From: Oscillospiraceae bacterium
Lineage (GTDB): Bacteria > Bacillota > Clostridia > Lachnospirales > Lachnospiraceae
Direction of reading: 5' to 3'
DNA: 64,000 nt
NCBI GenBank assembly: GCA_021771715.1
Contig: JAETOO010000018.1
Span: forward strand, 1-64,000
Shown here: positions 6,991 through 61,093 of the stretch, piece by piece
How the letters are laid out: every line of letters begins with the position of its first letter
Numbering within the stretch: the first letter of the stretch is position 1
Translations under genes and position numbers: made by a program
The notes under the pieces: generated by a model
What the model was told of the DNA's origin: nothing
Database searches by the model: none
Seen by the model: the letters and a program-made list of their open reading frames with translations, nothing else

Positions 6991-7989
6991 TCAGTAACCA
7001 ATCCGCTGCGCATACTTTTTCGGCGAGATGCCGACGGACTTTGTGAAGGACCGCAGGAAATTGCTGTAATCGTTGTAGCCGCACTCCGCGCAGGCCTCTG
7101 TGACCGAGCAGCCCAGGGAGAGCAATTCCTTGGCGCGGGTGATCCGTTTGGCCGTGATGTAGCGGTTGATGGTGGTGCCGGTCGCGTCGCGGAAGAGCTT
7201 GCAGAGGTACGAGCTGCTGATATAAAAATGGCCTGCGAGCGCGTTGATGCTCAAATCTCCGGTGAGATTTTGATTGACGTAGGAGAGGATCTGGTCAATC
7301 TGCGCATGGCGGGCGGCTGAATCACCGGGTTTGGAAGTCAGATCCGAGTCGGATCTGACATCTATTGCTCCGGGAGAGAGCGCGGGGACGGAATGTGCGG
7401 CAGGCCATGCGGAAGAGAGCGCGGGGACGGAATGTGCGACAGGCCATGTGGGAGAGGACGTATCTGCGGCGGCCTCCTGAGCGCGCAGAAGAAAACACCG
7501 GTTCAGAAAGGTCATCAGCTCGAGAAAGCAGGACCGTTCCAGAATATCCTGGCCGAAGCCCGCGTCCCCGGAGAGGCGGTGGATCAAGGACAGAAACTGC
7601 CCCTGTTCGTCGGGCGTCAGGGACAGTCGATGGCCGAACGGGGTGTTTCGGATTGAGAAGCACAGATTCAGATCGGTCTGCGGCGTGCAGCACTTCTTCA
7701 GATACTCCGGCCAGATGGACACGATGATCCGCTCGTGCGTGACATGGTCGATCTGCGTCAGATAATGGCTCTCAAACTGGTTGATAAAAAAGATATCCCC
7801 GGGGTGAAAGTTGTACAGGTGATTGTCGATCAGGAACTGTTTGCCGCCGGAGATCGAATAGTAAATTTCATAGCAATCGTGAATGTGGATTGCCATAGGC
7901 TTTTCGTCGTTGTACAGATGTGCGATGGCGAAATTTTTTTCGCTCAGGCAGGCGTTGATTGCGTCTTTGCAGGAAGAATAAAACTTCAT
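6991..7989 (-). CDS. AraC-family regulator with N-terminal cupin
   Basis: This 332-residue regulator starts at the ATG at 7989, preceded by AAAGGAA at good spacing; an upstream in-frame Met at 8040 lacks a ribosome site. Residues 30-95 form an arabinose-binding-type cupin (HIHDCYEIYYSISG, PGDIFFINQFESH). Residues 230-332 carry the double helix-turn-helix typical of AraC proteins (FYISSSYLCKLFRDATG, and the final GYNDYSNFLRSFTKSVGISPKKY). Between them, residues 172-228 are a Ser/Ala/Pro-rich insertion that includes a duplicated 13-residue unit (WPxAHSVPALS), which is unusual for this family. The gene diverges from the reductase/isomerase pair at 8301-9944, so it most likely controls that pair in response to a sugar or uronate; the inducer is inferred only. 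Confidence 0.9.
   Translation of the reverse strand: MKFYSSCKDAINACLSEKNFAIAHLYNDEKPMAIHIHDCYEIYYSISGGKQFLIDNHLYNFHPGDIFFINQFESHYLTQIDHVTHERIIVSIWPEYLKKCCTPQTDLNLCFSIRNTPFGHRLSLTPDEQGQFLSLIHRLSGDAGFGQDILERSCFLELMTFLNRCFLLRAQEAAADTSSPTWPVAHSVPALSSAWPAAHSVPALSPGAIDVRSDSDLTSKPGDSAARHAQIDQILSYVNQNLTGDLSINALAGHFYISSSYLCKLFRDATGTTINRYITAKRITRAKELLSLGCSVTEACAECGYNDYSNFLRSFTKSVGISPKKYAQRIGY
7381..7452 (-). repeat. 39-bp duplication inside the AraC linker
   Basis: Two near-identical 39-bp units begin at 7381 and 7420 and encode the repeated WPxAHSVPALS peptide. The unit length keeps the reading frame. Confidence 0.85.
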
Positions 7990-8216
7990 AAAAATTCCTT
8001 TCGTAGGGTGAGCGCGGAGCAGTGCGATCCGGCACGGCAATTTATGAATTCAAATACCGGAAACGGTCGATAGCAGGCTTTTGTCCTTGTTCTGCTATCT
8101 GAGGTTATCGTTTATTTACAGTATATATGCGAAAAAGAAGATTTGCAAGATTTTGAATAAAATAAGACAGGAAAAGGAATATCGGATATGATAGAGTGTA
8201 AGACAGTAGGAAAAGG

Positions 8217-12007: not shown

Positions 12008-13186
12008 ATGGCGGAGGAGAGATCGGGGGAAATCGGGATAGAGGAGAGGATGGCTGATGCCGGGGAGATAGAGTCGGGGAAAGGCGGGAGGAGCCTTTGG
12101 GGGAGGTGTAAGAACGCCGGGGAGGCGTTTTGCCGGACTGCCGGGGAGGAGCTTCACCGGACCGCCGGGAGGCTGCTTGGCGCACTCGTGATCTGGGGAC
12201 TGGCCGGAGTAGCGCTGATGACGGTGGGCGATGCCGGAGAGGGACGCCTGCGACGGGAAAGAGTGAACGCGGCAGCAGAACAGGGTGCTGTTGATGCGAC
12301 AGGAGTGGCAGGAGCAGCAGATGCGCCAGGAACGGCAGATATGGCAGGCGCAGTAGGTGTGGCGGAAACGGCAGATACAGGCGCAGCGGGTGTGGCGGAA
12401 ACGGCAGATGCAGGAGCAGCGGGTGTGGCGGAAACGGCAGATGCAGGAGCAGCGGGCGTGATGGAAACGGTAGGTGCGGCAAAGCCGAAGGGAGAGACCG
12501 TTTTAGATCATATAGTCTCCCCAGGAACGCAGAGTCTCCAGGACGGAAGCGAAATCTGGTCCGGCGGGGGTGGGGACACTGCGGTGCGGCAGACAGAATC
12601 GAACGACAGAGCGGACCGGGAGGACGGCGCATGCCGTCAGGTGGCGCTGACCTTCGACGACGGGCCGCATCCGGTCTACACGGCAAAGCTGCTGGACGGC
12701 CTGTCGGAGCGCGGAATCTGCGCGACCTTCTTTGTGGTCGGGAAAAATATTCCGGGAAATGAGGAGGTGATTGCGCGCATGGCCGCGGAGGGTCACCTGA
12801 TCGGAAACCACACGTATGACCACGTAAAAATTGCCGGCATGGACAACGACGATGCGTGTGCGCAGGTCGAGAAGACGAGCGCGCTCGTGCGGGAGATCAC
12901 CGGGAAGGACACCGAGTTCGTCAGGCCGCCGTTTGGCAGCTGGGATAAGACGCTGGAGTGTCCGTTTCAGATGATCCCGGTGCTCTGGGATGTGGACCCG
13001 CTGGACTGGACGACGAAAAACACGGAGCTCGTCGTACAGCGCGTGCTCGACGACGTGGAGGCGGGCGATATCATTTTGCTGCACGACTTCTATGAGTCGT
13101 CCGTCGACGCGGCGCTCGAGATCGCGGATCAGCTGATGACGCAGGGCTATGAGTTTGTCACCGTGGACGAACTGATTCTTGAATAA
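12008..13186 (+). CDS. Membrane-anchored polysaccharide deacetylase (NodB domain)
   Basis: This 392-residue protein has two possible starts, 12008 and 12050 (MADAGEIES); neither ribosome site is ideal. A single membrane segment (LLGALVIWGLAGVALMTV, about 60-78) anchors it. An Ala-rich linker with 11-residue repeats (GVAETADAGAA) leads to the catalytic domain from about residue 215. The NodB motifs are present: LTFDDGPHP with the metal Asp, HTYDH with the two metal histidines, RPPFGSWD, and LLHD near the end. The family removes N-acetyl groups from peptidoglycan or chitin-like polymers outside the cell, often giving lysozyme resistance. It is a single gene with its own downstream promoter separating it from rarA. 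Confidence 0.9.
   Translation: MAEERSGEIGIEERMADAGEIESGKGGRSLWGRCKNAGEAFCRTAGEELHRTAGRLLGALVIWGLAGVALMTVGDAGEGRLRRERVNAAAEQGAVDATGVAGAADAPGTADMAGAVGVAETADTGAAGVAETADAGAAGVAETADAGAAGVMETVGAAKPKGETVLDHIVSPGTQSLQDGSEIWSGGGGDTAVRQTESNDRADREDGACRQVALTFDDGPHPVYTAKLLDGLSERGICATFFVVGKNIPGNEEVIARMAAEGHLIGNHTYDHVKIAGMDNDDACAQVEKTSALVREITGKDTEFVRPPFGSWDKTLECPFQMIPVLWDVDPLDWTTKNTELVVQRVLDDVEAGDIILLHDFYESSVDAALEIADQLMTQGYEFVTVDELILE
12356..12487 (+). repeat. 33-bp tandem repeat in the deacetylase linker
   Basis: Units start at 12356, 12389 and 12422, with a degenerate fourth at 12455. Each encodes GVAETADAGAA-like 11-mers between the membrane segment and the catalytic domain. Confidence 0.9.
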
Positions 13187-15981: not shown

Positions 15982-16557
15982 ATGAGCATTGTAGAATTAT
16001 TTTTGCTTGCGGTGGGGCTGGCGATGGACGCGTTTGCCGTGTCTGTCTGTAAGGGCCTGGCGATGGAGAAGTGCAGTCTGAAAAAGGCGATGGTCTGCGG
16101 TGTGTGGTTCGGAGGCTTTCAGGCGCTGATGCCGGCGATCGGGTATCTGCTGGGCGTCCGGTTTGAGCGCTACATCACAGCCATCGATCACTGGATTGCG
16201 TTTGTGCTGCTCGGCGTGATCGGCGGCGGCATGATCAAGGAGGCCTTCGCGAAGGAGGAGGAAGCGGTCGATGACGCGATGGACGCGAAGACGATGTTTT
16301 TGCTGGCCGTGGCGACGAGCATTGACGCGCTTGCGGTCGGCATCACGCTCGCGTTTCTGCCGGACACGAATGTTCCGGTGGCCGTAGTCTTCATCGGCGT
16401 TGTGACGTTCGGGATCTCGACCGCCGGGGCCAGGATCGGCAACGTGTTCGGGGCGAAGTACAAGGGAAAAGCCGAGCTGGCAGGAGGCGCGCTCCTGGTT
16501 CTGCTCGGCCTGAAGATTCTGCTGGAGCACCTGGGGGTGCTGTCGTTTCCGCTGTGA
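15982..16557 (+). CDS. mntP: Manganese efflux pump MntP
   Basis: This 191-residue protein has six hydrophobic helices in two halves, each with the signature of the family: [18 protein letters not shown] at residues 10-28 and [18 protein letters not shown] in the second half. The paired Asp residues in these repeats are needed for Mn2+ export in characterised MntP proteins. The leader is only 56 bases, so there is no room for the yybP-ykoY manganese riboswitch that often precedes mntP. The stop is followed immediately by a 38-bp tandem array shared with the convergent ybaK gene. Confidence 0.95.
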
Positions 16558-16568
16558 GTGAGGGAACC

Positions 16569-16775
16569 GGCCGGATTCGCGTTGTTTCTGCTGCGCGAGA
16601 GATACGGGCCGGATTTGCGTTGTTTCTGCTGCGCGAGAGATACGGGCCGGATTCGCGTTGCTTCTGCTGCGCGAGAGATACGGGCCGGATTTGCGTTGTT
16701 TCTGCTGCGCGAGAGATACCGGCCGGATTCGAGTTGCTTCTGCTGCGCGAGAGATACCGGCCGGATTTGCGTCGG
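16569..16775. repeat. 38-bp tandem array between mntP and ybaK
   Basis: Units start at 16569, 16607, 16645, 16683, 16721 and 16759 (the last partial). They begin GGCCGGATT and contain CTGCTGCGCGAGAGATAC. Odd units have ATTCGCG or ATTCGAG and even units ATTTGCG, so the real period may be a 76-bp dimer. The array reaches the last base of ybaK. There are no spacers, so it is not CRISPR. Confidence 0.95.
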
Positions 16776-16776
16776 T

Positions 16777-17259
16777 TTACCGTGTGAAATCGCAGAATTT
16801 TCCCTTGCTCGCCGCGGCGAGGTCGTCCGGCGAGAGCTCGATCTGAGCGCCGAGCTTTCCGCCGCTGACGGTGATCTGTGGGAACGATCGGGCGTGGGCT
16901 GAGATAAAGACGGGATACTGCTTTTTCATCCCGATTGCGGTGCAGCCGCCGCGGATGTAGCCGGTCACGTCATGAATGTCCTTGACGTGGATCATGGCGA
17001 GCGATTTGACGCCGGCTTCGTGCGCGCATTTCTTGAGGTCGAGCTCGGAGTCGATCGGGAGCACGAACACGTAGTAGCCGTGCTCCGGGCTGACAGTCAC
17101 AAGTGTCTTGAACATCGTCTCGTGCGGCAGGCCGAGCAGGTCCGCGGTGTGCTGTGCATCCGTGAAATCGTCGCATTCATACGTATAGGTTTTATAGGAA
17201 ATTTTCATGCGGTCGAGAATCCGCATTGCGTTAGTCTTCACTTCTTTATTTTTTGCCAT
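16777..17259 (-). CDS. ybaK: Cys-tRNA(Pro)/Cys-tRNA(Cys) deacylase, YbaK/EbsC family
   Basis: This 160-residue protein starts at the ATG at 17259 behind GGGGAG. It is full length for YbaK: KTNAMRILDRMKISYKTYTYE at the start, the conserved lysine segment KTLV, FVLPIDSELDLKKCAHEAG, and GYIRGGCTAIGMKKQYPVFI with the catalytic-pocket Gly-rich loop. The enzyme hydrolyses cysteine mis-attached to tRNA(Pro) after ProRS errors. It is a single gene, and its stop codon lies against the 38-bp repeat array. Confidence 0.95.
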   Translation of the reverse strand: MAKNKEVKTNAMRILDRMKISYKTYTYECDDFTDAQHTADLLGLPHETMFKTLVTVSPEHGYYVFVLPIDSELDLKKCAHEAGVKSLAMIHVKDIHDVTGYIRGGCTAIGMKKQYPVFISAHARSFPQITVSGGKLGAQIELSPDDLAAASKGKFCDFTR

Positions 17260-17404
17260 TTTATATTCTCCCCGGAATTGGATCATGATGTGATACTGTC
17301 CTGATACATGGATCAGTATACCGCTCCGCCTGTGATTTGTACAGGGAACGGAAGGGAGAAATTTACATATATTATAAGGAAAAATTTAAGAAGGAACCAG
17401 AGGA

Positions 17405-18595
17405 ATGGATTATTATAGAAGCGGCAGGCCGGGAGGCTGTGCGGGTAAAAGAAGGACGGACTGCCAGGAGGGCGTGGAGCCGAGGCCGCGCGTGTGCAGG
17501 GGCATGTATATGCGCGCGGAGGAGATCGACCGGGAGCGGGCGATGAGCGGATGGAACCCATATGTGGGCGAGGAGGAGCCGGTGGAGCGGACGGCGGGCG
17601 AGCAGATGCCGCAGCCGATGCCGCTGACCCGGAGCGAGGAGGATACCTGGAGCCGTCAGCCATCGCCGTCGGAGGCCGGCTCCAATCAGAGAAAGGCATC
17701 GCCGGGATGGACGCAGATGGGGAATGACGGGCGGATGATGGACGGCGGAGCAGGGATGGATGATGGCCGGATGGTGGACGGCAGAGCAGGGATGAATGAC
17801 GGATGGATGATGAACGGCGGATCAGGGATGGATGACGGGCGGATGATGAACGGCAGATCAGGGATGGATGACAGGCGGATGATGAACGGCGGATCAGGGA
17901 TGGATGATGGCCGGATGATGAACGGCAGAACGGGGATGAATGAAGGATGGATGATGAACGGCGGATCAGGGATAGATGACGGGCGGATGATGGATGGCAG
18001 ATCGGGGATGGATGACGGCCGAATGATGCACGGCGGAGCATGGATGGACGAAGAGCGAATGATGGGCGATAGGTCAATGGCGGGGCAAGAACCGATGAGG
18101 AACAGACCTTCCGGAGCTATGGCAGGGAACGGAGCTATGGCAGGGAATGGAGCTATGGCGGAGAACGGCTATATGGCGGAGAATGCGGCGATGGCGGGCC
18201 GTGCGTGCGCGATGGAGAGAGAGCAGGCGATGAACGAAGAGCAGGCGATGGAGCAGGATCTGCGGAGGCTGCAGACGATGTACCCGGAGGCGGCGAAGCG
18301 GCTGCTGCCCTACGTGGAGGACGCGTGTGATAAGCTGGAATATGCGGGCAGCGAAATGTATATGGAGCACCCGGATCAGGAGGCTGTGCTGCGGCTCGGC
18401 GAGACGATCTACGAGCAGGTGAAGGAGCAGTTTCCGCCGATGTCAGAGCCGGAGCCGGATGAAGTGCTGTCAATGCAATTCGAGCGGAACCGCCGGCGCC
18501 CCGGCCAGAACTGGGTGCAGGACATGATTCGCGTCATGCTTCTGCAGGAGATGCACCGGAGACGATGCAGGTACGGGCGATGCAGAAGAAGATAG
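17405..18595 (+). CDS. Met/Gly/Asp repeat protein with conserved helical C-terminus, unknown function
   Basis: This 396-residue protein starts at an ATG behind AAGGAACCAGAGGA. Residues 108-227 are ten 12-residue repeats of the form DGRMMNGGSGMD, alternating GGSG and GRSG so that a 24-residue period is also visible. A short set of AMAGNG hexapeptides follows (about 237-260). The C-terminal 120 residues look like a real folded domain (LRRLQTMYPEAAKRLLPYVEDACDKL, then EHPDQEAVLRLGETIYEQV) and end in an Arg/Cys-rich tail. There is no signal peptide. The composition recalls spore-coat or metal-binding proteins, but I recognise no family and assign no function. The downstream methyltransferase is separated by repeats. 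Confidence 0.75.
   Translation: MDYYRSGRPGGCAGKRRTDCQEGVEPRPRVCRGMYMRAEEIDRERAMSGWNPYVGEEEPVERTAGEQMPQPMPLTRSEEDTWSRQPSPSEAGSNQRKASPGWTQMGNDGRMMDGGAGMDDGRMVDGRAGMNDGWMMNGGSGMDDGRMMNGRSGMDDRRMMNGGSGMDDGRMMNGRTGMNEGWMMNGGSGIDDGRMMDGRSGMDDGRMMHGGAWMDEERMMGDRSMAGQEPMRNRPSGAMAGNGAMAGNGAMAENGYMAENAAMAGRACAMEREQAMNEEQAMEQDLRRLQTMYPEAAKRLLPYVEDACDKLEYAGSEMYMEHPDQEAVLRLGETIYEQVKEQFPPMSEPEPDEVLSMQFERNRRRPGQNWVQDMIRVMLLQEMHRRRCRYGRCRRR
17726..18085 (+). repeat. Ten 36-bp coding repeats
   Basis: Ten 36-bp units, in frame, encode the DGRMMNGGSGMD-type 12-mers. A second array of 18-bp units (AMAGNG) lies at about 18114-18190. Confidence 0.9.
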
Positions 18596-18650
18596 GAATA
18601 CCCACTTGTTCAAAAGGGGAAGCGATAGTATACTGAGAGTAATAGTCCAG

Positions 18651-18890
18651 CCACAGACAGGAGCTGCGAAGCAGCGGATAGCTTGCGTAGCAAGCGGGGC
18701 ACTGAGTGCCAGTGTTGCTGCGTGCCAGTGTTGCTGCGTGCCAGTGTTGCTGAGTGCCAGTGGCACTCGTTTAGCAACGACCGAGCCGGGAGGCGAGACC
18801 ACTCGTTTAGCAACGACCGAGCCGGGAGGCGAGACCACACGGTTAGCGCCGACCGAAGCGGAGCGCAGATCTGCGGCTGGTATGGCGTCG
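18651..18890 (+). repeat. Truncated copy of element D interrupted by tandem repeats
   Basis: The left part (18651-18700: CAGCCACAGACAG, GCTGC-gaa-GCAGC, GCTTGC-gta-GCAAGC) and right part (CTGCGGCT..ATGGCGTCG to 18890) match the inner segment of element D at 11688-11756. Between them are a 16-bp unit GTGCCAGTGTTGCTGC repeated three times (18706-18762) and a 36-bp unit starting CACTCGTTTAGCAACG repeated twice plus a decayed copy (18765-18868). Confidence 0.75.
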
Positions 18891-18923
18891 AAAAAATGTG
18901 TGAAGAAGAACTATGAGGACAGA

Positions 18924-20462
18924 ATGGAAGAATTAAAGAAATTATTGGATACGATATTAGACGAGGAGCTGATCATGCTGGTGGTCAGTGCGCCCAGGAC
19001 GAAGGATGCGTATCAGAGGATCCGGATTCGGCCGGTCCGGCATCGCGGGGAGGTCGTTTTTCAGGCGGCGCTCTGGGACGGGAAAAAGGAATTTCACAGG
19101 AATTATGACAGGGAGAGCTTGCTTCCCGAGCTGCTTGCGTGGATGAGCCGCGATTACCGGCAGCTGCAGGCGGAGACGACGAGGCTGACCGCATCGGCGC
19201 TGGTGAGCAAGAAGGGCAAGGTGACTGCGAAGCTGAGGCACCGCCAGCAGCCCGCCAAGCAGGCCGATCTGGAGCACAACCGCACGAAGCGCTACCTGCT
19301 GCCGGAGGGGGAGCCGGTACCGTTTCTCGTGAAGCTCGGGGTGATGACGCCGGAGGGCAGGGTGGTAAAGGCAAAGTACGATAAGTTCCGCCAGATCAAC
19401 CGCTTTCTCGAGTTTATCGAGGACATTTGCCCGGTGCTCGCGAGGAACCGGGAGCTCACGATGATAGATTTCGGGTGCGGCAAATCCTACCTGACGTTTG
19501 CGATGTACTATTATCTGCACGAGAAGAAGGGCTACGACCTGCGGATCACCGGGCTCGACCTGAAGGAGGACGTGATTGCGCACTGCAATCAGCTTGCCGC
19601 AGAGTTCGGCTATGAAAAGCTGCAGTTTTTGACCGGCGATATCGCGGACTATGAGGGAGTGGAGCAGGTGGACCTCGTGGTCACGCTGCACGCCTGTGAC
19701 ACGGCGACGGACTACGCGCTTGCGAAGGCAGTTGCGTGGAACGCGCGCGCGATCCTGTCCGTGCCCTGCTGCCAGCACGAGCTCAACCGCCAGATCACAA
19801 GCGAGGTCCTGCAGCCGGTGCTCAAATACGGTCTGATCAAGGAGCGGATGGCAGCGCTTGTCACCGACGGACTGCGCGCCGCCATGCTCGAGGAGTGCAG
19901 CTACCAGGTGCAGGTGCTGGAATTTATCGACATGGAGCACACCCCGAAGAATATCCTGATCCGGGCCGTGAAGCAGCCGGAGCGTATTGGGTATGATAGG
20001 AAGGAAGACCGGTCGTCGGAGCTTGAGGCGTGTATGGAATTTCTGCATGTGCAGCCGACGCTTCGCGGATTGCTGCCGCTTCCACAGCCTCAGGCAAAGA
20101 GTGCGGCGGCAGGTGAGATCCTACCGGATACCGTATCGGAGCGTAAAGGAGCAACCCGGAGCCTATCGGATGAAGAATCGGAGCGCAGAGGAGCAGTCCA
20201 GAGCCTATCGGACACAGCATTGGAGCGCAAAGGAGCAGCCCAGAGCTTATCGGATGCATTGCCGGAGCACAAAGGAGCAGCCCAGAGATTATCGGATGCA
20301 TTGCCGGAGCGCAAAGGAGCAGCCCAGAGATTATCGGATGCATTGCCAGAGCGCAAAGAAATCGTCTGGGGCCCGTCAGACGCAGTGCCGGGGCGTGGCG
20401 AAACGGACATGACACAGAAAAAGAAAGGGCGGCAGCCGGAAGGGACGGGGGATCGGCAGTAA
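18924..20462 (+). CDS. Class I SAM-dependent methyltransferase with repeat tail
   Basis: I place the start at the ATG at 18924 (MEELKKLLD), which has a GAGGA site at good spacing. The in-frame ATG at 18882 belongs to the dispersed repeat just upstream. The protein is then 512 residues. Residues 1-130 are a family-specific N-terminal region. The methyltransferase core follows: TMIDFGCGKSYLTFAMYYYL (SAM loop), ITGLDLKE, TGDIADY, and VDLVVTLHACDTATDYAL with SVPCCQHELNRQ. This resembles methyltransferases of the Methyltransf_32 type, which includes tRNA- and RNA-modifying members; the substrate is unknown. The last 110 residues are 14-residue repeats (LSDALPERKGAAQR) foreign to the family. The next gene starts two bases after the stop. 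Confidence 0.85.
   Translation: MEELKKLLDTILDEELIMLVVSAPRTKDAYQRIRIRPVRHRGEVVFQAALWDGKKEFHRNYDRESLLPELLAWMSRDYRQLQAETTRLTASALVSKKGKVTAKLRHRQQPAKQADLEHNRTKRYLLPEGEPVPFLVKLGVMTPEGRVVKAKYDKFRQINRFLEFIEDICPVLARNRELTMIDFGCGKSYLTFAMYYYLHEKKGYDLRITGLDLKEDVIAHCNQLAAEFGYEKLQFLTGDIADYEGVEQVDLVVTLHACDTATDYALAKAVAWNARAILSVPCCQHELNRQITSEVLQPVLKYGLIKERMAALVTDGLRAAMLEECSYQVQVLEFIDMEHTPKNILIRAVKQPERIGYDRKEDRSSELEACMEFLHVQPTLRGLLPLPQPQAKSAAAGEILPDTVSERKGATRSLSDEESERRGAVQSLSDTALERKGAAQSLSDALPEHKGAAQRLSDALPERKGAAQRLSDALPERKEIVWGPSDAVPGRGETDMTQKKKGRQPEGTGDRQ
20128..20394 (+). repeat. 42-bp tandem repeats at the 3' end of the methyltransferase gene
   Basis: About six in-frame 42-bp units encode LSDALPERKGAAQR-like 14-mers. 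The 4th and 5th units are almost identical, while the outer units have diverged. Confidence 0.9.
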
Positions 20463-20463
20463 G

Positions 20464-48716: not shown

Positions 48717-50744
48717 ATGGAGTTTAGGACAGATCGGCTGCTGCACGGCGGCGATTACAATCCGGAGCAGTGGCTGGACCGCCCGGATATTTTGGAGAAG
48801 GACATTGAGATGCTGAAGGAGGCGGGCTGCAACGCGGTGAGCCTCGGCATTTTTTCGTGGTCGACCCTGGAGCCGGAGGAGGGCGTGTTTCACTTTGAGT
48901 GGCTGGAGGAGATCATCGACCGGCTCTACGCGAACGGGATCTCGACGATCCTGGCGACACCGTCCGGCGCGCGGCCGAAATGGCTGGCGGAGAAGTACCC
49001 GGAGGTGCTGCGCGTAGATGAGTCGCGCCACAGGAATCTGTTCGGCGGGCGGCACAATCACTGTTACACGTCCCCGGTGTACCGTGAGAAGGTCGCGCTG
49101 ATCAACCGGAAGCTCTCGGAGCGTTTCGGGAAGCATCCGGGCGTGATTCTCTGGCATATTTCCAATGAGTACGGCGGCGAATGCCATTGCCCGCTGTGCC
49201 AGGATGCGTTTCGCGGCTGGCTGCGGGAGCGGTATCAGACGATCGACCGGCTGAATAAGTGCTGGAACACAACGTTCTGGAGCCACACGTACCAGAGCTT
49301 TGACCAGGTGGAGAGCCCGTCGAGGCGCGGGGAGCGGGAGCTGCACGGGCTGAATCTGGACTGGAAGCGCTTCGTGACGGAGCGGACGGCGGACTTCATC
49401 CGCCATGAGGTAGAGGCGATTCGGGCGGGCGGCAGCACGCTGCCGGTGACGGCGAACCTGATGTACTATTTTGAACAGCTCGACTATTTCCGTCTGGCTA
49501 AGGAGCTCGACATTGTGTCCTGGGATAACTACCCGATCTGGCACAAGAAGGAGCTGATCGAGACGGCGTACGATGCCGGGATGTGTCATGACCTGATGCG
49601 CTCTCTGAAGCGGAAGCCGTTTTTCCAGATGGAGTCCTGTCCCTCGGCGACGAACTGGCAGGGTGTCAGCAAGCTGAAGCGGCCGGGCGTTCTCTTCGCG
49701 CAGTCGATGCAGGTGATCGCGCACGGCGGCGAGGGCGCGCTGTATTTCCAGATCCGCCAGAGTCAGGGCGCTTCCGAGAAGTTTCACGGGGCGGTGATCG
49801 ACCATTACGGCGGGACGGATACGCGCGTGTTCCGCGAGGTCAGCGAGGTGGGAGCGGCGCTGAAATCGCTCTCGGAGCTTGCAGGCAGCACGGTGAACAG
49901 CAAGGTGGCGATGCTCTACGACTGGAACAGCCAGTGGGCGATGAACGACAGCCGCGGGCCGAGAAACGACGGGCTGCACTATCATGAGGTACTTCTGAAG
50001 ATTTACCGCGCGTTCCGCAGGAGGGCGGTGGATGTCGATTTGATTGATATGGAGCAGGAGCTCTCCGGGTACCGGGTGCTGGTGCTGCCGATGGCCTACA
50101 TGTTCAAGGCGGGCTTTGCCGAGAAGGTGCGCGCGTTTGTGGAGAATGGCGGCGTCCTGATCACGACGTACTGGTCGGGGATCGCGGACGACACGGATCT
50201 CTGCTACCTGGGCGGCACGCCGTACGGGCTGATGGACGTGCTCGGGGTGCGCAGCACGGAGATCGACGGGCTGTTTGACTGGGAGAAGAACCGCTTCGTC
50301 CCGGTGGACGGGAATGCGCTCGGATTGTCGAAGGAGTACGATTGCCGGTATCTCTGCGACCTTGTAGAGCTGCGCGGCGCGACGCCGGTGATGACGTACG
50401 GCAGTGATTTCTATGAGGGCTATGCGGCGCTGACGGTGAACCGTTATGGTGAGGGAAGCGCGTGGTACGTGGCCGCGGACGCGGACCGGGAGTTCTACGC
50501 GGACTTCATCGCGCGCGTGCTGCAGCAGAACGGCATCGAGGGCGCGGTCGCAGACGAGATCCCGGAGGGGCTCGAGATCACGACGCGGGAAAAGGATGGC
50601 GTGCGATACTACCTGTATCAGAATTTCGGCACGCAGCCGGTACAGATTCCGCTGCCGCAAGGAGCGGTGGAGGCAGTGTTCGGCGATCCGCAGAAAGCGC
50701 TGAAGCCGTGCGGGCTGGTTGTGCTGAAAGGCGGCTGTAAGTAG
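48717..50744 (+). CDS. Beta-galactosidase, glycoside hydrolase family 42
   Basis: This 675-residue enzyme starts behind GGAGG. It has GDYNPEQWLDRPDILEKDIEMLKEAGCNAV at the start, the acid/base Glu151 in WHISNEYGGECHCPLC, with nearby cysteines typical of the zinc site in GH42, and nucleophile Glu306 in FFQMESCPS. The middle trimerisation domain (about 390-600) and a small C-terminal beta domain complete the standard A-B-C layout. It has no signal peptide and probably hydrolyses imported galacto-oligosaccharides or arabinogalactan side chains. The last 15 codons form the first unit of a 62-bp tandem repeat that runs into the intergenic region. Confidence 0.94.
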   Translation: MEFRTDRLLHGGDYNPEQWLDRPDILEKDIEMLKEAGCNAVSLGIFSWSTLEPEEGVFHFEWLEEIIDRLYANGISTILATPSGARPKWLAEKYPEVLRVDESRHRNLFGGRHNHCYTSPVYREKVALINRKLSERFGKHPGVILWHISNEYGGECHCPLCQDAFRGWLRERYQTIDRLNKCWNTTFWSHTYQSFDQVESPSRRGERELHGLNLDWKRFVTERTADFIRHEVEAIRAGGSTLPVTANLMYYFEQLDYFRLAKELDIVSWDNYPIWHKKELIETAYDAGMCHDLMRSLKRKPFFQMESCPSATNWQGVSKLKRPGVLFAQSMQVIAHGGEGALYFQIRQSQGASEKFHGAVIDHYGGTDTRVFREVSEVGAALKSLSELAGSTVNSKVAMLYDWNSQWAMNDSRGPRNDGLHYHEVLLKIYRAFRRRAVDVDLIDMEQELSGYRVLVLPMAYMFKAGFAEKVRAFVENGGVLITTYWSGIADDTDLCYLGGTPYGLMDVLGVRSTEIDGLFDWEKNRFVPVDGNALGLSKEYDCRYLCDLVELRGATPVMTYGSDFYEGYAALTVNRYGEGSAWYVAADADREFYADFIARVLQQNGIEGAVADEIPEGLEITTREKDGVRYYLYQNFGTQPVQIPLPQGAVEAVFGDPQKALKPCGLVVLKGGCK

Positions 50745-50935
50745 ATAAGCGGCAGGAAGCGCTGAGGCTGTGCGGGCTGGTTGTGCTGAAAAGCGGCTGT
50801 AAGTAGATAGGCGGCAGAAAGCGCTGAGTCTGTGCGGGATGGTTGTGCTGAAAAGCGGCCGTAGGTAGATAAGCGGCAGAAAGCGCTGAGGCTGTGTGAT
50901 CTGGTCGTGCCCGGAAGTGGCTGCAGGCAGAGGTG
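50691..50935. repeat. 62-bp tandem repeat covering the GH42 stop codon and downstream
   Basis: The motif GCTGA..CTGTGCGGG..GGT(T/C)GTGC begins at 50699, 50761, 50823 and 50885, exactly 62 bp apart. The first unit is coding (final residues KPCGLVVLKGGCK and TAG); the later units lie after the stop and the last is the most diverged. Confidence 0.95.
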
Positions 50936-52883: not shown

Positions 52884-53918
52884 TCACAGCTCTGTCTCGA
52901 GCCGCTCCGTGATCTCGACGGCGCGCCTGGTGGCGGCGAGGCCGCCGTGACCGGTCTCTCGCAGGGAGACGTCCATGAGGTCGCCGACCTCCTTCATGGC
53001 GTCGATGACCTGGTCGGCGGGGATCGCGCTGCGGATTCCGGCGAGTGCCATGTCCGCGGCGGACATCGCGTTGACGGCGCCGATGACGTTGCGCTTCACG
53101 CACGGCACCTCGACGAGCCCGGAGACCGGGTCGCAGACGAGGCCGAGCAGATTCTTCAGGCTGATGGCGACAGCGGTGAGGATCTGATCGGGGGCGCCGC
53201 CCTGCAGGTAGGTGAGCGCGCCGGCCGCCATCGCGGAGGCGGAGCCGATCTCCGCCTGACATCCGCCGGAGGCTCCGGCGATGCTCGCCCGCGTCGCGAT
53301 CACCTGTCCGATCCCGGCAGCGACGAAGAGCGCCCTGACGGCGGGAAGCTCTTCGGCAGAACGTTTACTCCCGGAAGATGCGCGGTCAGTGTCATTTACA
53401 GGAAAGCCAGCCACACTGCGGTCATCTGTCGTTAGGGCAGCAGCATCTGGCTCATTTGCCGCAGGATAGATATCATTTGCGGCAGCGCAAGCATGCTCAG
53501 ACTGCGCGGTACTGTCCGTGCCCTCCCGAAACAGCGGGATCAGCACCGCGGGCAGCACGCCGCAGGCGCCGGCGGTGGGCGCGGCGACGATGCGCTTCAT
53601 GCAGGCGTTGGACTCGCCCATCTGGAGCGCCTGGGCGATCACGCGGCCTATCCGGTCTCCGCACAGAGGATTGCCGGCTGCAACGTAGCGCGCCATCTGT
53701 CCGCCTGCGCCGCCGACGAGACCGCTGCGCGAGCGGCTGTTTTCATCGTATGCGTCGCTGGCAGCGCACATATTTTCCCACATGGAGGTCATCTGCGCGA
53801 CCGTCGACTCGCGCGTGACCAAGCGGTCCTTCATATCCTCGCGGATGATTGCCTCCGCGAAGTCTATTTCTTCTTCTTCGCAGACCGTTATGATCTGTTC
53901 GAGAGCTTCAAATGCCAT
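52884..53918 (-). CDS. sdaAA: L-serine dehydratase, iron-sulfur-dependent, alpha subunit
   Basis: This 344-residue protein starts behind GAGGAAACAGCT. It carries the family landmarks KDRLVTRES, NACMKRIVAAPTAGACGVLPAVLI, GASGGCQAEIGSASAMAAGA and VCDPVSGLVEVPCVKRN; Cys220, Cys262 and Cys273 are the likely [4Fe-4S] ligands. With the beta subunit it deaminates serine to pyruvate and ammonia in many Clostridia. Residues 133-187 are an odd polar insertion (TDSTAQSEHACAAAND.., rich in Ala, Asp, Ser) between LIPLFREG and ALFVAAGIGQV, where other SdaAA proteins have a short helix. The insertion is less GC-rich than the rest of the gene. It lies 30 bases downstream of sdaAB. Confidence 0.93.
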   Translation of the reverse strand: MAFEALEQIITVCEEEEIDFAEAIIREDMKDRLVTRESTVAQMTSMWENMCAASDAYDENSRSRSGLVGGAGGQMARYVAAGNPLCGDRIGRVIAQALQMGESNACMKRIVAAPTAGACGVLPAVLIPLFREGTDSTAQSEHACAAANDIYPAANEPDAAALTTDDRSVAGFPVNDTDRASSGSKRSAEELPAVRALFVAAGIGQVIATRASIAGASGGCQAEIGSASAMAAGALTYLQGGAPDQILTAVAISLKNLLGLVCDPVSGLVEVPCVKRNVIGAVNAMSAADMALAGIRSAIPADQVIDAMKEVGDLMDVSLRETGHGGLAATRRAVEITERLETEL

Positions 53919-55860: not shown

Positions 55861-56026
55861 GGGATGAGAAACGAGGACACGGAAAATGCGGGAAAACGGC
55901 ACTGATAAAAGTGGGGAAGGGCGTGTGCGACAGCGGAAGGATGGCGCGCGTAAACTCGTAGGAAACGGCGCGGATGAGAGACAGGAAGCGTGGGATGAGA
56001 GTGAATGGCTGCAAGGAGGGTGGGAA

Positions 56027-57382
56027 ATGTTCGGAAGATCGAGGACAATGGAGAGGCTGGACAATATGTTGGAGGATGCGATCAACGGCTGCTTTACGGA
56101 ATCGCGGTACGACGAGACAGAGCTCTCCCGCCTGGAAAACCGCTTTCGCCAGTATCTGGAGATGCGGGAGCTGCAGGCGGAGGCCGCGAGGCAGGAGCGG
56201 GAAGCGCTGAGGGAACTGGTGACAGACCTGTCCCACCAGATGAAGACCCCGCTCGCCGCGCTGACCTTGTACGCGCAGATTCTCGAGGAGCAGTGCGTGG
56301 GGGAAAGCGTCGACGCATGTGAAGCGCAGAGTGGCGGATGGAGCACTGACCGATGCGGCGGGAAAAGGGACAGCGAGCATGCTTGGTTGAGTGATAGCCA
56401 GGATGCCAGCCAGAGCATTGATCGATGCGGCGAGAAAAGTACGTGCGAGCATGCTCGGCTGAGTGATATCCAGAGTGGTGCCCAGGGCATTGACCGATGC
56501 GGCGGAAAAAACGCGTGCGGGCATGCAGGGCCGGTCGAGGGCCACTATATCAGCGCGGAGACCGTGCACTGCGCGGGGCAGATCCGGCTGCAGGCGGAGA
56601 AACTGGAGAGCTTGATCGGCGCGCTGGTACAGCTCTCCCGCCTGGAGACCGGCATGGTGGAGGTCGTGCCCAGACCGCTCTCCGTGAAAGGGCTGGTGGA
56701 CGGCAGCGTCCGTCTCCTGGAGGCGAAGGCGGCGGCAAAGGGAATCTCCATCCAGACAGGGTGGGATGAGAAGACACAGAGCGCAGGAGAACAGGAGAAC
56801 CGGGCGTGTCACGGGAGCGGTCAAGATAACCAAGCGTGGTATGGGAGCGTGCAGGAGAACCGGACGCAGCACGGGAGCGTGCAGGAGAACTGGGCGTGTC
56901 ACGGGAACGTGCAGGAGAACCGGGCGTGGTACGGGAGCGGTCAGGAGAACCGGGCGTGGCACGGGAACGAGCAGGAGAACCAGGCGTGGCACGGGAGCGG
57001 TCAGGAGAGTCGGGCATGCTACGGGAGCGGTCAGGAGCTCCTGGCTATGTACGACGCGCGTTGGACGCAGGAGGCGCTGGTCAATGTGCTGGACAACGCG
57101 GTGAAGTATTCGCCCGCCGGGAGCACGGTGACGGTCATGGTCCGCGCGCTGGAGCTGTTCGTCTGCATCAACGTCGAGGACGAAGGCATGGGTGTGCCGG
57201 AGGAGGAGCGCGCGAAGATTTTCGGCCGCTTCTACCGCGGAGCAAACGCTGTGCAGGAGGAAGGCTGCGGAGTCGGCCTGTACCTGACCCGCATGATCCT
57301 GCAGAAGGAGGGCGGCTATGTCCGCGTGCAGCCGCGCAGGGAGGGCGGCAGCAGCTTCCAGATATATCTCCCGAGAAAGTAA
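56027..57382 (+). CDS. Soluble sensor histidine kinase with two repeat insertions
   Basis: I place the start at the ATG at 56027 behind AAGGAGG; an in-frame ATG at 55886 has a poorer site and would add 47 polar residues. The 451-residue protein has no membrane helix. A DHp domain with His70 (VTDLSHQMKTPLAAL) is followed by a 72-bp-repeat insertion (DRCGGK.., about residues 95-160), then the second DHp helix (QAEKLESLIGALVQLSRLETGMVEV). After the start of the ATPase domain comes a second insertion of eight 10-residue repeats (QENRAWHGSG, 256-335). The N box NVLDNAVKYSP, DEGMGVPEEERAKIF and GCGVGLYLTRMILQKEGG complete it. The catalytic core is intact despite the insertions. Signal input probably comes from the ABC transporter. 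Confidence 0.88.
   Translation: MFGRSRTMERLDNMLEDAINGCFTESRYDETELSRLENRFRQYLEMRELQAEAARQEREALRELVTDLSHQMKTPLAALTLYAQILEEQCVGESVDACEAQSGGWSTDRCGGKRDSEHAWLSDSQDASQSIDRCGEKSTCEHARLSDIQSGAQGIDRCGGKNACGHAGPVEGHYISAETVHCAGQIRLQAEKLESLIGALVQLSRLETGMVEVVPRPLSVKGLVDGSVRLLEAKAAAKGISIQTGWDEKTQSAGEQENRACHGSGQDNQAWYGSVQENRTQHGSVQENWACHGNVQENRAWYGSGQENRAWHGNEQENQAWHGSGQESRACYGSGQELLAMYDARWTQEALVNVLDNAVKYSPAGSTVTVMVRALELFVCINVEDEGMGVPEEERAKIFGRFYRGANAVQEEGCGVGLYLTRMILQKEGGYVRVQPRREGGSSFQIYLPRK
56348..56540 (+). repeat. 72-bp repeat inside the kinase DHp domain
   Basis: In-frame 72-bp units at 56348 and 56420, with a partial third at 56492, encode 24-residue DRCGxKxxxEHAxLSDxQ repeats between the two DHp helices. 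Confidence 0.88.
56792..57031 (+). repeat. 30-bp repeat array inside the kinase ATPase domain
   Basis: Eight in-frame 30-bp units encode QENRAWHGSG-like decapeptides, placed just before the segment leading to the N box. Confidence 0.92.
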
Positions 57383-57540: not shown

Positions 57541-58305
57541 ATGGAACTGCTTAGGACAGAGCATCTGAAAAAGTATTACGGGGAGGGCGAGACGTGCGTG
57601 CGCGCGCTGGACGACGTGAATTTCTCCGTGGAGAAGGGGGAGTTCGTGTCGATCGTCGGGACGAGCGGGAGCGGAAAATCGACGCTGCTGAATATGCTGG
57701 GCGGCCTGGACCGGCCGACGTCGGGGCGCGTCATTGTGGACGGGAAAGATATTTTTTCCCTGAAGGAGCAGGCGCTGACGATCTTCCGCAGGAGAAAGAT
57801 CGGCTTCGTGTTTCAGAATTACAATCTGGTGCCGGTGCTGAATGTCTATGAGAACATTGTGCTGCCGATCGAGCTGGACGGCAGGCAGCCGGACAAGCGC
57901 TTTGTGGAGGAGGTCATCGGGACGCTGGGGCTGCAGAAACGGATCTACGCGCTGCCTTCGCAGCTCTCCGGCGGACAGCAGCAGAGGGTGGCGATCGCGC
58001 GCGCCCTCGCGAGCAAGCCGGCGATTCTCCTCGCGGACGAGCCGACCGGCAACCTGGACTCGGCGACGAGCCAGGATGTGCTGCTGCTTCTGCGCACCTC
58101 GAGCGAGCACTTCGGGCAGACGATGGTGATGATCACGCACAACGAGGAGATCGCGCAGCTGGCGGACCGGATCGTGCGCATCGAGGACGGACGGATCACG
58201 ACCTCCAGAGACGGGCGCGGGCAAAGCAGAGGCGCGGAGGCGACGGCAGGCCGACATCGGATCGAATCGGATGCGGGGGAAAAGGACGGTGAGCGCCATG
58301 CGTAA
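57541..58305 (+). CDS. ABC transporter ATPase (BceA/LolD/MacB type)
   Basis: This 254-residue protein starts behind AAGGAGAG. Walker A GTSGSGKS (40-47), Q-loop FVFQNYNLVPVLNV, signature LSGGQQQRVAIARAL, Walker B ILLADEP and the switch His in MITHNEE are all present. It belongs to the branch that pairs with FtsX-like permeases. After the usual end (RIVRIEDGRI) there is a polar tail of about 40 residues rich in Arg/Gly/Glu. Its last eight bases overlap the permease start, so the pair is translationally coupled. Confidence 0.95.
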   Translation: MELLRTEHLKKYYGEGETCVRALDDVNFSVEKGEFVSIVGTSGSGKSTLLNMLGGLDRPTSGRVIVDGKDIFSLKEQALTIFRRRKIGFVFQNYNLVPVLNVYENIVLPIELDGRQPDKRFVEEVIGTLGLQKRIYALPSQLSGGQQQRVAIARALASKPAILLADEPTGNLDSATSQDVLLLLRTSSEHFGQTMVMITHNEEIAQLADRIVRIEDGRITTSRDGRGQSRGAEATAGRHRIESDAGEKDGERHA

Positions 58306-61093
58306 GGTGGGAAATGCAGGTGTGATCCGCCGTCTTTCGATGAAGAGCTTCCGGGAAAGCCGCACGCGGAACCGGATTGCCGCGATCGCGATCCTGCTGA
58401 CGGCAGTGCTCTTTACGGCGGTTTTCACGATCGGGATCGGGCTTACCGAACATGCGCAGCGCTCTATGATGGAGCAGGCCGGTGGGGACGCGCACGGCGC
58501 GATCAAGGGACTGAGCCAGGAGCAGTATGAGATCCTGCGGGAGCATCCGCTGATCCGCGAATGCGGGCGGGACGTTCTGGTGGCTTACGGCGTGAAAAAT
58601 CCGGAATTTTTAAAGCGCCATGTGGAGATGCACTACATTGACCCGGAATTTTACGGGCACTGGTTTTTGGAGATTGTCGACGGAAGAGCGCCGGAGACGG
58701 CGGATGAGATCCTGCTGGATGAGCGGTCGATGGCGCTTTTGGGTCTTGAGCCGAAGGCGGGGCAGCAGGTGACGCTCGACGTGCTTGTGCACGCGCTCGA
58801 CCCGGACACTGTGCCGCGCAGGCTTACGGTAAGCGGCGTGCTCAGGGCGAAGGAGGCGATGAATGTCGGCTTTGCGATCGTGTCGGAGGCCTACCTGGAG
58901 GAGCACGCCGGGGAGATGGCCGAGGGCAGGACGGAGACTGTGCTGAACGGTGGCGAGACTGAGTCACTGATCGCAGGCGAGAGCAGCAGCGAGGCGGAAA
59001 GCATGGCTGCAGGTGGGCCAGACGGCGAGCCCGGGATTGTATCTGCAGGGGAACCAGACGGTGAGCAGGGAGAAGCGACTGCAAGTGAGTCTGACAGTGG
59101 ATCTGGGTCACCGTCCATAGAAGGAAACGGCGCGGACTGGGACGGCGTCGGAGAGATTTCGATGCAGATTGTGTTTGCGGATTCCTCCGATATCCAGGGC
59201 CGGCTCAACCGGGTGATTACGGAGAGCGGCTTTTCGACGGACAGGAGCGCGCCCGGCTATATCGAGTCAAACGCGAACTGGGCGTACCTCTCGGAGAGCG
59301 CGGGCGCCGATCCGATGACAGTGATCGGCATTGCCGGGGCGGTGGTTCTGATCCTCGTGGCGGGCTATCTGATCATCTACAATGTGTTCCAGATCTCGGT
59401 TCTCAGGGATATCCGCTATTATGGCCTGCTGAAGACGATCGGCACGACCGGGCGGCAGATCCGGCGGATCCTGCGCCGCCAGGCGCTGCTGCTCTGCCTG
59501 ATGGGGATTCCGGCGGGACTGCTGATCGGCTATTTTGGCGGCGCGCTGCTGCTGCCCGTCATGCTGCCGCCGAATACCGGCGAGCGCGAGGTGCAGCTGG
59601 TGAGCCCGCATCTGTGGATTTTCGCCGGGGCGGCCGTCTTCACGGTGCTGACGGTGCTGATCTCCGAGTGGAAGCCGGCCCGGGTCGCGGCAAGGGTCTC
59701 CCCGGTGGAGGCGCTGCGCTACACGGATCAGACGCATGGCCGAAAAAAGGGAAAGCGTTCCACGGACGGCGGAAAGCTCTGGCGGATGGCGTTTTCAAAT
59801 CTGGGGCGCAGCCGCATGCGGACGGCGGTGGTGATCTGCTCGCTGTCTCTGACGATTGTTTTGCTGAACAGCATTTACACGGTGACGCACTCGATCGACC
59901 GCGCCGGTTTTCTCTCGAAAATGATTCTGAGCGAGGATCTCATAGGCAACGCCGCTCTGTGGAACTACAATTACCGTCCGTACGACGAGGAATCGGCGGC
60001 GGAGGTATCGCTGACGGAGAGTTTTGTCAGTGCGGTGCAGGGGCAGGAGAGCTATCTGGACGGCGGGCGGATTTATCAGATCGACAGCGCCGTGTCCATG
60101 CCGGTGGAGAGCTGGAGGATTCCCGACTATATCCCGAAAAATGTGGCCGGAGCTCCGGTGGACATGACGCCGGAGGGACCGATCGCGTACAATGGCTATG
60201 AGGAGGGTGCTTACAGGGTCGCGCTGCACGGAATTGAGCCGTTTGTGGTCAGGAAGATGGAGGTCGCCGAGGGTGAGACGGACCCGGACGCGCTCTGGGA
60301 GAAACTCGCCTCCGGCAAGTATCTGCTGTACGCGGCGCCTGTGGATGACAATAATGTTGTGGTGGAGGATGAGCTGCTGCACCATGCGGGCGATTCCGTG
60401 ACACTGCAGTATCCCGACGGGACAGAGAAGACGTACGAGATCGCGGCCGTGACCAGGAACCACACATTCAGCCTGACGAACCGCATGAGCAGCAACTTTA
60501 CGTACTACGTGGCTGCCAAGGAGTTTCAAGCGCATCTCTCGGACGCGTATCTGATGAACTTCCTGTTCGACGTAAAGGAAGGACAGGAGGATGCGATGGA
60601 GGAGTTCCTGGAGGATTACACGGAACATGTGGAGCCGCAGATGTCGTTCGAGTCGAGAAAAACGTACGAAGGCTCTTTCCGGGAGATCATCGGTATGATT
60701 ACGCTGGTCGGCACTGCGCTGACCGTGGTGGTCGGCCTGATCGGACTTCTGAATTTTGTCAACGCGGTGCTGACCGGGATGGTCACGCGCGCGCACGAAT
60801 TTGCGATGATGGAGGCGATCGGGATGACCCGCGGCCAGCTCGTGCGGATGCTGATGGCAGAGGGCATCTTCTACGCCCTCCTGACAGCCGTCACCGCTGC
60901 GGCAGCCGGAACGCTCTTCTCCGTGACCGCGCTGCGGGCGATCAGCGGCGGAATCTGGTTCATGCGCTACCGCTTCACCCTGCTGCCGCTCCTGCTCACC
61001 TGCCCGGTGCTTTTGGCGCTCGGCGCCCTGATCCCCAAGGCGGCATACGCCCTGCAGAAAAAGCAGAGCATCGTGGAAGGGCTGCGGGAGTAA
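58298..61093 (+). CDS. FtsX-type ABC transporter permease
   Basis: I place the start at the ATG at 58298, which overlaps the ATPase stop; an ATG at 58271 lacks a ribosome site. The 931-residue protein has one N-terminal helix (IAAIAILLTAVLFTAVFTIGIGL), a large MacB-like extracellular domain, three helices around residues 340-470 with an FtsX domain, a second N-terminal-type helix (TAVVICSLSLTIVLLNSIYTV), another outside domain, and a final three-helix FtsX domain. Residues 215-285 of the first outside domain are an acidic Gly/Ser/Glu insertion (GEPDGEQGEATASESDSG..) unlike the family. The likely role is peptide-antibiotic detoxification or lipid/peptide export together with the upstream regulators. 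Confidence 0.92.
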   Translation: MRKVGNAGVIRRLSMKSFRESRTRNRIAAIAILLTAVLFTAVFTIGIGLTEHAQRSMMEQAGGDAHGAIKGLSQEQYEILREHPLIRECGRDVLVAYGVKNPEFLKRHVEMHYIDPEFYGHWFLEIVDGRAPETADEILLDERSMALLGLEPKAGQQVTLDVLVHALDPDTVPRRLTVSGVLRAKEAMNVGFAIVSEAYLEEHAGEMAEGRTETVLNGGETESLIAGESSSEAESMAAGGPDGEPGIVSAGEPDGEQGEATASESDSGSGSPSIEGNGADWDGVGEISMQIVFADSSDIQGRLNRVITESGFSTDRSAPGYIESNANWAYLSESAGADPMTVIGIAGAVVLILVAGYLIIYNVFQISVLRDIRYYGLLKTIGTTGRQIRRILRRQALLLCLMGIPAGLLIGYFGGALLLPVMLPPNTGEREVQLVSPHLWIFAGAAVFTVLTVLISEWKPARVAARVSPVEALRYTDQTHGRKKGKRSTDGGKLWRMAFSNLGRSRMRTAVVICSLSLTIVLLNSIYTVTHSIDRAGFLSKMILSEDLIGNAALWNYNYRPYDEESAAEVSLTESFVSAVQGQESYLDGGRIYQIDSAVSMPVESWRIPDYIPKNVAGAPVDMTPEGPIAYNGYEEGAYRVALHGIEPFVVRKMEVAEGETDPDALWEKLASGKYLLYAAPVDDNNVVVEDELLHHAGDSVTLQYPDGTEKTYEIAAVTRNHTFSLTNRMSSNFTYYVAAKEFQAHLSDAYLMNFLFDVKEGQEDAMEEFLEDYTEHVEPQMSFESRKTYEGSFREIIGMITLVGTALTVVVGLIGLLNFVNAVLTGMVTRAHEFAMMEAIGMTRGQLVRMLMAEGIFYALLTAVTAAAAGTLFSVTALRAISGGIWFMRYRFTLLPLLLTCPVLLALGALIPKAAYALQKKQSIVEGLRE

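Follow-up and report, generated by a model that had tools for sequence, protein, structure and literature searches.

Tandem arrays in a Lachnospiraceae genome and its genus: minisatellites probably born by local duplication and filtered by reading frame and protein fold

Why do so many ordinary genes in one short piece of a bacterial genome carry tandem repeats, and how do these genes stay readable? The question is raised by a stretch of 64,000 nucleotides from an Oscillospiraceae bacterium of the gut, assigned to the Lachnospiraceae (positions 1 to 64,000 of contig JAETOO010000018.1, assembly GCA_021771715.1; hereafter the window), which represents one contig of a 4.18-Mb draft genome of 54 contigs and 97.7% completeness. 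An earlier reading of the letters by themselves (the original prediction) had described repeats or low-complexity inserts in at least seven genes, and had proposed either that tandem duplications are frequent and screened by reading frame, or that repeats are actively seeded in linkers and surface loops. Using Tandem Repeats Finder (TRF), with overlapping calls merged, 15 arrays of score ≥50 are found in the window, and all repeat arrays named in that reading are present with the unit lengths it gave, coding and intergenic alike (Table 1). The arrays are probably minisatellites that stem from local tandem duplication, their rate or retention exceeding that in the wider family several-fold, and that have been filtered by frame and by fold.

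The search was extended to twenty 20-kb stretches elsewhere in the genome, giving together with the window a source sample of 464 kb (11% of the genome), and to relatives; score cut-offs were ≥100 for density and ≥80 for frame and unit size. In the following, G000 is the source genome, other G numbers are genomes of the same genus and L numbers are sequence stretches or loci. As the original prediction had implied, the rest of the genome holds many such arrays: 38 with a score ≥100 in the 400 kb outside the window, or 9.5 per 100 kb (50 in the 464 kb including it), which shows the excess to be genome-wide in this sample. Furthermore, 30 of the 311 genes called in the sample bear an array of score ≥80, and extrapolation yields some 450 arrays (score ≥100) for the whole genome, and about 234 for arrays with at least four copies. 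The Lachnospiraceae loci L037-L110, 74 loci centred on the methyltransferase locus and including at least one same-genus genome (L038), contain 28 arrays in 1.365 Mb (2.05 per 100 kb), so that the source is enriched 4.6-fold (p = 1e-9). Other families of the order hold 5 arrays in 386 kb (1.3 per 100 kb; source 7.3-fold higher, p = 3e-7), and the same pipeline finds no array of score ≥100 in 150 kb of Escherichia coli K-12. In 27 genomes of the same genus, for which the stretches are partly the methyltransferase locus as well, 54 arrays of score ≥100 occur in 1.068 Mb (5.1 per 100 kb). Array richness is thus common to the genus, but unevenly so: density is heterogeneous among 14 genomes including the source (chi-square p = 0.001), with dense genomes (arrays per 100 kb: G012 16.3, G007 12.8, G006 9.9, G003 9.6) and sparse ones (G018 3.3, G016 1.7, G017 0.8), and nine genomes with ≤30 kb read show no array of score ≥100. 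Two G062 contigs (C21, at the end of L156, and C74, at the start of L246) each stop inside a tandem array or a few bases away from one; assemblies may therefore break at such places, and near-perfect arrays are probably under-counted.

The clearest property of the arrays is their relation to the reading frame. Genes were called with a home-made hexamer model that covers 79% of the sequence and probably misses genes, and the 53 arrays of score ≥80 in the source sample were divided into 33 coding and 20 non-coding, the arrays at 18702-18856 upstream of the methyltransferase start being counted as non-coding. The expectation that units are in frame within genes and free between them is borne out, as the unit is divisible by three in 33/33 coding compared to 5/20 non-coding arrays (p = 2e-9), and in 31/31 compared to 4/14 when eight ambiguous arrays are dropped. 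A similar bias is seen in G012 (17/18 coding, 4/14 non-coding) and in G003, G006 and G007 taken together (18/18 coding, 5/9 non-coding). Unit lengths in the source sample span 9-120 bp, yet the distributions inside and outside genes agree, with medians of 39 bp and 37.5 bp, respectively (p = 0.88). Arrays are denser in non-coding than in coding DNA (20.8 versus 9.0 per 100 kb), and depending on the assumed coding fraction the coding density amounts to 0.74-1.29 times one third of the non-coding density. Frame bias, equal unit sizes and one-third density are what a single process acting on all DNA would leave once its out-of-frame products are lost, and because one process accounts for the pattern, no machinery that seeks out linkers is needed. 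Hence the first of the two proposed alternatives, frequent tandem duplication filtered by frame, stands on the genome-wide excess, the frame bias, the shared unit sizes and the roughly one-third coding density, whereas active seeding at linkers and loops can be dispensed with, since the units are nearly unrelated to each other, intergenic DNA is affected too and selection would leave just such an avoidance of domains.

This avoidance of domains was assessed for 28 of 36 gene-borne arrays, the envelope of each Pfam family being limited to its top-scoring stretch. The other eight comprise five arrays whose host proteins have no Pfam match (single ones in L118, L120 and L122, two in the Met-rich protein), one at the 5' edge of a gene (L130) and the two upstream of the methyltransferase start. 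A single array of the 28 overlaps an envelope (a SpaA domain), or two if the kinase hairpin described below is counted whole, while about 15 would be expected; among 10,000 random placements none had an overlap as low. The arrays lie at termini and between domains, as selection would leave them. According to Pfam their hosts include TilS, UvrC, RsmB, a PSP1 protein, a helicase, two AraC regulators with the array between sensor and helix-turn-helix (HTH) domain, a response regulator with the array between receiver and DNA-binding domain, a subtilase with a CspB prodomain, a sulfatase and an alpha-amylase.

The host proteins in the window illustrate the same placement. The array of the AraC regulator (residues 195-224) lies in the linker between the AraC_binding (51-169) and HTH (257-346) domains, and the 33-bp array of the deacetylase lies N-terminal of its Pfam domain (207-316), the matches of three orthologues beginning only at residues 194-204. 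The methyltransferase, whose best named orthologues belong to the Lachnospiraceae metagenome-assembled genomes L031 (SUG1567, 78%) and L032 (69%) and to 'Candidatus Choladousia intestinipullorum' (L033, 72%), has a tail of 131 residues, compared to 75 in L031, 61 in L158 (with another repeat) and ≤37 in 81 of 87 usable rows; the comparison held 97 rows with some loci twice, of which 10 rows with negative values from frame tracing were ignored. In an AlphaFold model built on 26 sequences, the body of this enzyme has a predicted local distance difference test score (pLDDT) mostly of 80-95, while the score falls below 50 at 95 of the residues 404-526, which make up the array-bearing tail. The 38-bp array between convergent genes takes up most of a spacer of 219 bp that measures -6 to 74 bp in L033, L036 and L038. 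In L031 (taken to be G018), the orthologues of the window genes starting at 15982 and 16777 are separated by about 4.1 kb of extra DNA (3948-8106).

The inserts of the histidine kinase are confirmed by comparison with six homologues, a kinase being parsable from 6 of 12 homologue loci. Its 72-bp array sits inside the HisKA hairpin, where the Pfam match ends at residue 141 and the helix continues past the insert, and its 30-bp array precedes the ATPase-domain match (390-497). As a result of sequence alignment read by eye, the H-box, N-box and G-boxes are seen to be kept, although the distance from H-box to N-box is 284 residues versus 113-142 in the homologues; three of the six have other, shorter inserts at the site of the 30-bp array (by eye). 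The claim that catalytic motifs stay intact therefore holds for the kinase, the other proteins having been judged by Pfam matches alone. The polar SdaAA insert also proved real, with about 54 extra residues where G020 has none and G018 about five. The acidic insert of the permease is a genuine sequence feature as well: it carries a decayed 36-bp periodicity that none of 300 codon shuffles matches.

Table 1. Tandem arrays and inserts of the 64-kb window (positions and gene coordinates are those of the window; a dot marks features without strand)
Position	Strand	Feature	Location	Basis
5390-5868	+	120-bp x4 array	2150-aa Ig-like surface protein	TRF
7371-7456	-	39-bp x2.2 array	AraC-family regulator 6991-8040	TRF
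12115-12178	+	24-bp array, weaker	N-terminal part of polysaccharide deacetylase 12008-13186	TRF
12309-12470	+	33-bp x4.8 array	Polysaccharide deacetylase, residues 101-155	TRF
16569-16772	.	38-bp x5.4 array	Non-coding, between convergent genes	TRF
17724-18064	+	36-bp x9.5 array (higher order 144 bp)	Met-rich protein 17405-18595	TRF
18112-18197, 18209-18253	+	Two 18-bp arrays	Same linker of Met-rich protein as 36-bp array	TRF
18702-18762	.	16-bp x3.8 array	Upstream of likely methyltransferase start (MASKK at 18882)	TRF
18764-18856	.	36-bp x2.6 array	Upstream of likely methyltransferase start (MASKK at 18882)	TRF
20116-20395	+	42-bp x5.6 array	C-terminal tail of methyltransferase 18882-20462	TRF
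29422-29446		12-bp minimal duplication, score 50		TRF
50690-50910	+	62-bp x3.6 array	3' end of gene 48717-50744, spans stop codon	TRF
53349-53507	-	Polar insert, 53-codon core of ~54 residues	SdaAA gene 52884-53918	Relatives G018/G020
56341-56526	+	72-bp x2.6 array	Histidine kinase 55886-57382	TRF
56792-57037	+	30-bp x8.2 array (higher order 90 bp)	Histidine kinase 55886-57382	TRF
58895-59164	+	Acidic insert	FtsX-type ABC permease 58271-61093, residues ~209-298	Periodicity

Two of these features, the 120-bp array and the 12-bp duplication, did not appear in the original prediction. The former has as its unit a Cys-containing, domain-like repeat of 40 residues and is other in kind than the linker arrays; the latter lies near the end of a gene for a transposase of the PD-(D/E)XK nuclease family (28776-29600, Pfam PDDEXK_2).

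The same sites were also compared in relatives. None of the orthologues compared (methyltransferase, Met-rich protein, kinase, SdaAA and part of the deacetylase) has an insert equal in sequence and length, so the conserved inserts that would have spoken against the original prediction were not seen among them. These differences are between species; the original prediction supposed that lengths might also vary fast between strains. In the Met-rich protein, other arrays are present in G062, G006, G007, G058 and L063 and none is seen by eye in L033, L035 and G017; the sole match between arrays of different genomes measures 23 bp (G058/G007). MutL provides a second case: of the 19 genomes examined, 7 have arrays in the region flanked by its two conserved ends (G000, G012, G003, G002, G062, G005 and G060). 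No pair among the nine MutL arrays of these genomes was matched by BLAST (E 1e-3), including those of G005 and G060, whose units are of equal length, look related by eye and have 28 of 42 bases alike by hand count. The MutL linker of the source (G000:C52:279766-281907, L210) is enlarged by an array of 6.5 copies of 24 bp, and its frame of 943 codons, including an upstream extension, is the longest among the MutL frames listed. Furthermore, DNA identity is about 88% between two sister species, G062 and G044; the MutL of G062 contains an extra stretch of 231 bp with a 48-bp array, and the middle of its SbcD one of 204 bp with a 39-bp array, both absent from G044. Within the stretches of G062, four of six strong arrays lie in or between aligned blocks, and G044 has no array at any of these four places; the two G044 arrays lie outside the regions aligned with G062. 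As far as sequence comparison goes, these studies show different arrays at orthologous sites and presence/absence between two sister species. Matches to two further repair proteins are split in frame, as if inserts had settled there: MutS in G001, G014 and G051 near profile position 116-141, and PcrA in G006, G007 and G008 near position 641-670.

The units themselves are almost entirely private to their site. Only two 16-bp matches connect the 53 source arrays, and within the 4.18-Mb draft the kinase array and the SdaAA insert each match themselves alone. Two loci bear on the origin of a unit: in the 62-bp unit one recognises the 3' end of the preceding gene 48717-50744 together with its stop codon, which indicates that native DNA was duplicated there, and a unit present several times in the Met-rich gene of G062 occurs in about one copy (by eye) in that of G044. 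Gene 48717-50744 is a putative beta-galactosidase gene. Higher-order periods of 144, 90 and 84 bp point to the duplication of whole blocks. Copies within an array are mostly about 75-98% identical and differ mainly by transitions (576 of 848 differences), four arrays being left out of this sum (one under 65% identity, three unusable in frame). The ratio of nonsynonymous to synonymous change (dN/dS) between copies is 0.47 over 32 arrays, with several arrays near 1, which implies weak constraint. An exact repeat run of at least one unit occurs in 17 of the 53 arrays, so some events may be recent, while other arrays are well decayed. Hairpin-forming potential is weak at most (8/53 units with z < -2 versus simple shuffles).

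These observations fit a sequence of steps in which ordinary local tandem duplication, by replication slippage or unequal recombination, would make arrays with units mostly of about 30-45 bp, alike in genes and between genes. In genes, selection would retain units divisible by three where the fold tolerates them, at termini, in interdomain linkers and in hairpin loops. Retained arrays may then gain and lose copies and diverge under weak constraint, until old arrays decay to non-repetitive polar linkers and new ones replace them at the same permissive sites. We infer the slippage or recombination step, the decay step, the lack of function for most arrays and an elevated rate of birth rather than of retention.

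Several findings weigh against this account. Raised birth and raised retention are indistinguishable on the present data, and the source genome exceeds the rest of its genus just 1.9-fold (p = 0.005). No single copy of the MutL or SbcD unit of G062 is detectable in G044, so duplication of shared sequence is not demonstrated at these two sites. The SdaAA insert shows little internal periodicity, equalled by 6 of 300 codon shuffles, and as this insert is hardly repetitive, duplication as it stands leaves it unexplained. One coding array of G012 has a unit of 40 bp. The composition of the arrays is unusual too: those in majority-strand genes are rich in A and G (AT skew 0.35 versus 0.05 and GC skew 0.30 versus 0.16 in other such coding DNA) and intergenic ones have a GC content of 0.54 versus 0.41 in other intergenic DNA, so that the seeds may be non-random or the composition selected. 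As to replication-strand asymmetry, arrays are purine-rich on the local majority strand, and opposite-strand genes hold just three arrays, with mixed skew signs. Finally, no cause was found among the five repair genes checked: MutS, MutL, RecJ, SbcD and PcrA.

The explanation that deserves most attention beside local duplication with an elevated rate or retention is that the birth rate is normal and that weak selection, owing to a small effective population size, lets ordinary duplications persist. A range from 0.8 to 16 arrays per 100 kb within the genus (genomes with ≥60 kb read), even though the tested repair genes are present, speaks for it, but a near-complete frame filter and the avoidance of domains mean that selection is not weak in general, and the excess extends to non-coding DNA; neither point is decisive, and we regard it as rather doubtful. 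It is less probable still, and on the whole unlikely, that the mutation rate is normal and that the repeats are individually selected as functional linkers, for instance for length tuning or binding. Some arrays do differ mostly by synonymous changes (L127 5987: pN 0, pS 0.70, for the nonsynonymous and synonymous proportions), the composition is biased and polar, and relatives reuse the same linkers. However, the higher density in non-coding DNA at the same unit size, the overall dN/dS with several arrays near neutrality, and orthologues that carry nothing or another sequence at these sites are not what such a role would predict.

A mobile or selfish element that inserts in frame into genes and subsequently becomes repetitive would resemble the palindromic elements of Rickettsia, which are selfish, inserted in frame and have related sequence at many insertion sites. 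Insertion in frame, in ordinary genes and loops, and the little internal repetition of the SdaAA insert would suit it. Against this stand the near absence of sequence common to the source arrays, the single occurrence of the kinase array and the SdaAA insert in the draft, and the lack of mutual matches between MutL arrays from different genomes; both a shared insertion element and elements of the Rickettsia type were largely rejected on such grounds, no shared terminal motif or target-site duplication having been sought, and we consider this explanation very improbable. An artefact of assembly or binning is scarcely credible: the assemblies are drafts and two G062 contigs stop inside or beside arrays, yet the copies differ, the arrays respect the reading frame and the pattern recurs in many separate assemblies.

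As to what drives an elevated rate, the loss of repair genes was rejected as a simple cause, because the five genes tested all have matches without an internal stop in the source genome, point changes in them not having been examined. G+C content is not convincing as a driver (Spearman 0.45, p = 0.10, 14 genomes). The length of the MutL open reading frame correlates with array density (0.66, p = 0.018, 12 genomes), which is taken as a consequence of the trait and not as independent of it. Targets of diversity-generating retroelements accumulate adenine-specific substitutions. Adenine-directed mutagenesis, and with it the idea of such targets, was rejected, since 363 of the 848 copy differences involve no A; no reverse transcriptase search was made.

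Other familiar repeat classes do not describe the arrays either. The units in the window are contiguous (TRF; 16500-18900 also read), which sets them apart from CRISPR arrays, although no CRISPR program was run and cas genes were not searched. Domain repeats were likewise rejected: Pfam finds no tetratricopeptide (TPR), leucine-rich (LRR) or ankyrin model among the scanned proteins, and the SpaA case is the only one of the 28 arrays to overlap any listed envelope. The constant-size tandem repeats of 52 or 20-21 nt, mostly non-coding, are excluded by the broad range of units found here (9-120 bp, coding median 39 bp) and by the 33 of 53 arrays that are coding. By contrast, the 33 coding arrays all agree with the description of bacterial in-frame intragenic minisatellites, which are head-to-tail repeats of some 9-260 bp divisible by three.

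A close parallel is Legionella pneumophila, where coding minisatellites all have unit lengths divisible by three, which is ascribed to selection for frame; strains differ in copy number in 7 of 23 genes, and no copy-number change is seen over generations in culture (PMC2639597). In-frame coding minisatellites are found in both cases. However, Legionella has 39 repeats after filtering by other criteria than here, compared to the ~450 extrapolated for the source genome; several of its repeats belong to TPR, ankyrin and leucine-rich proteins, whereas almost none here is in a recognised domain; and different arrays at orthologous linkers distinguish the present genus (PMC2639597). For Bacillus, the report gives on average 22.8 tandem repeats per genome, most of constant size (52 or 20-21 nt), non-coding and partly conserved between strains, and regards the B. 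cereus group as unique in its number of coding repeats (PMC8161180). Both genera combine array-rich and array-poor species, species-specific sequences and coding units in multiples of three, while the source genome differs by its broad unit sizes, by 33 of 53 arrays being coding and by the ~234 arrays with at least four copies, a TRF count to be set against another program there (PMC8161180). For E. coli tolA, a study describes RecA-dependent contraction of an in-frame repeat with function at least partly kept, and a mutS effect on the 15-mer repeats that is not significant (PMC3477136). The in-frame repeat is the likeness; the difference is that tolA is a single gene, with ~30 E. coli genes having in-frame repeats according to that study (PMC3477136). 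Searching by title in mostly freely accessible literature, no report of such arrays in Lachnospiraceae was found, the query by genus name being too unspecific. In-frame bacterial minisatellites are therefore already known, and what is unusual here is the density, the housekeeping hosts and the recurrence of different arrays in the same linkers.

For the biology of the group, the linker of the widespread protein MutL with its species-different arrays, next to array-poor congeners, offers a natural experiment on the birth of disordered linkers in bacteria, and the comparison of dense with sparse genomes of one genus could reveal what controls minisatellite birth. In practical terms, the arrays are possible markers for strain typing, and orthologue lengths and short-read assemblies in the group may mislead at array sites. 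We can entertain only tentatively the further idea that the genus carries a heritable driver that makes 30-45 bp duplications at a much raised rate, for instance a changed polymerase, helicase or recombination activity, and thereby continuously lengthens and replaces linkers and tails in much of the proteome; such a driver would lie elsewhere than in a loss of one of the five checked genes. If it were true, the affected linkers and tails would include those of MutL, UvrC, TilS and RsmB, and the genus would be a bacterial counterpart of the fast-evolving, repeat-rich disordered regions of eukaryotes.

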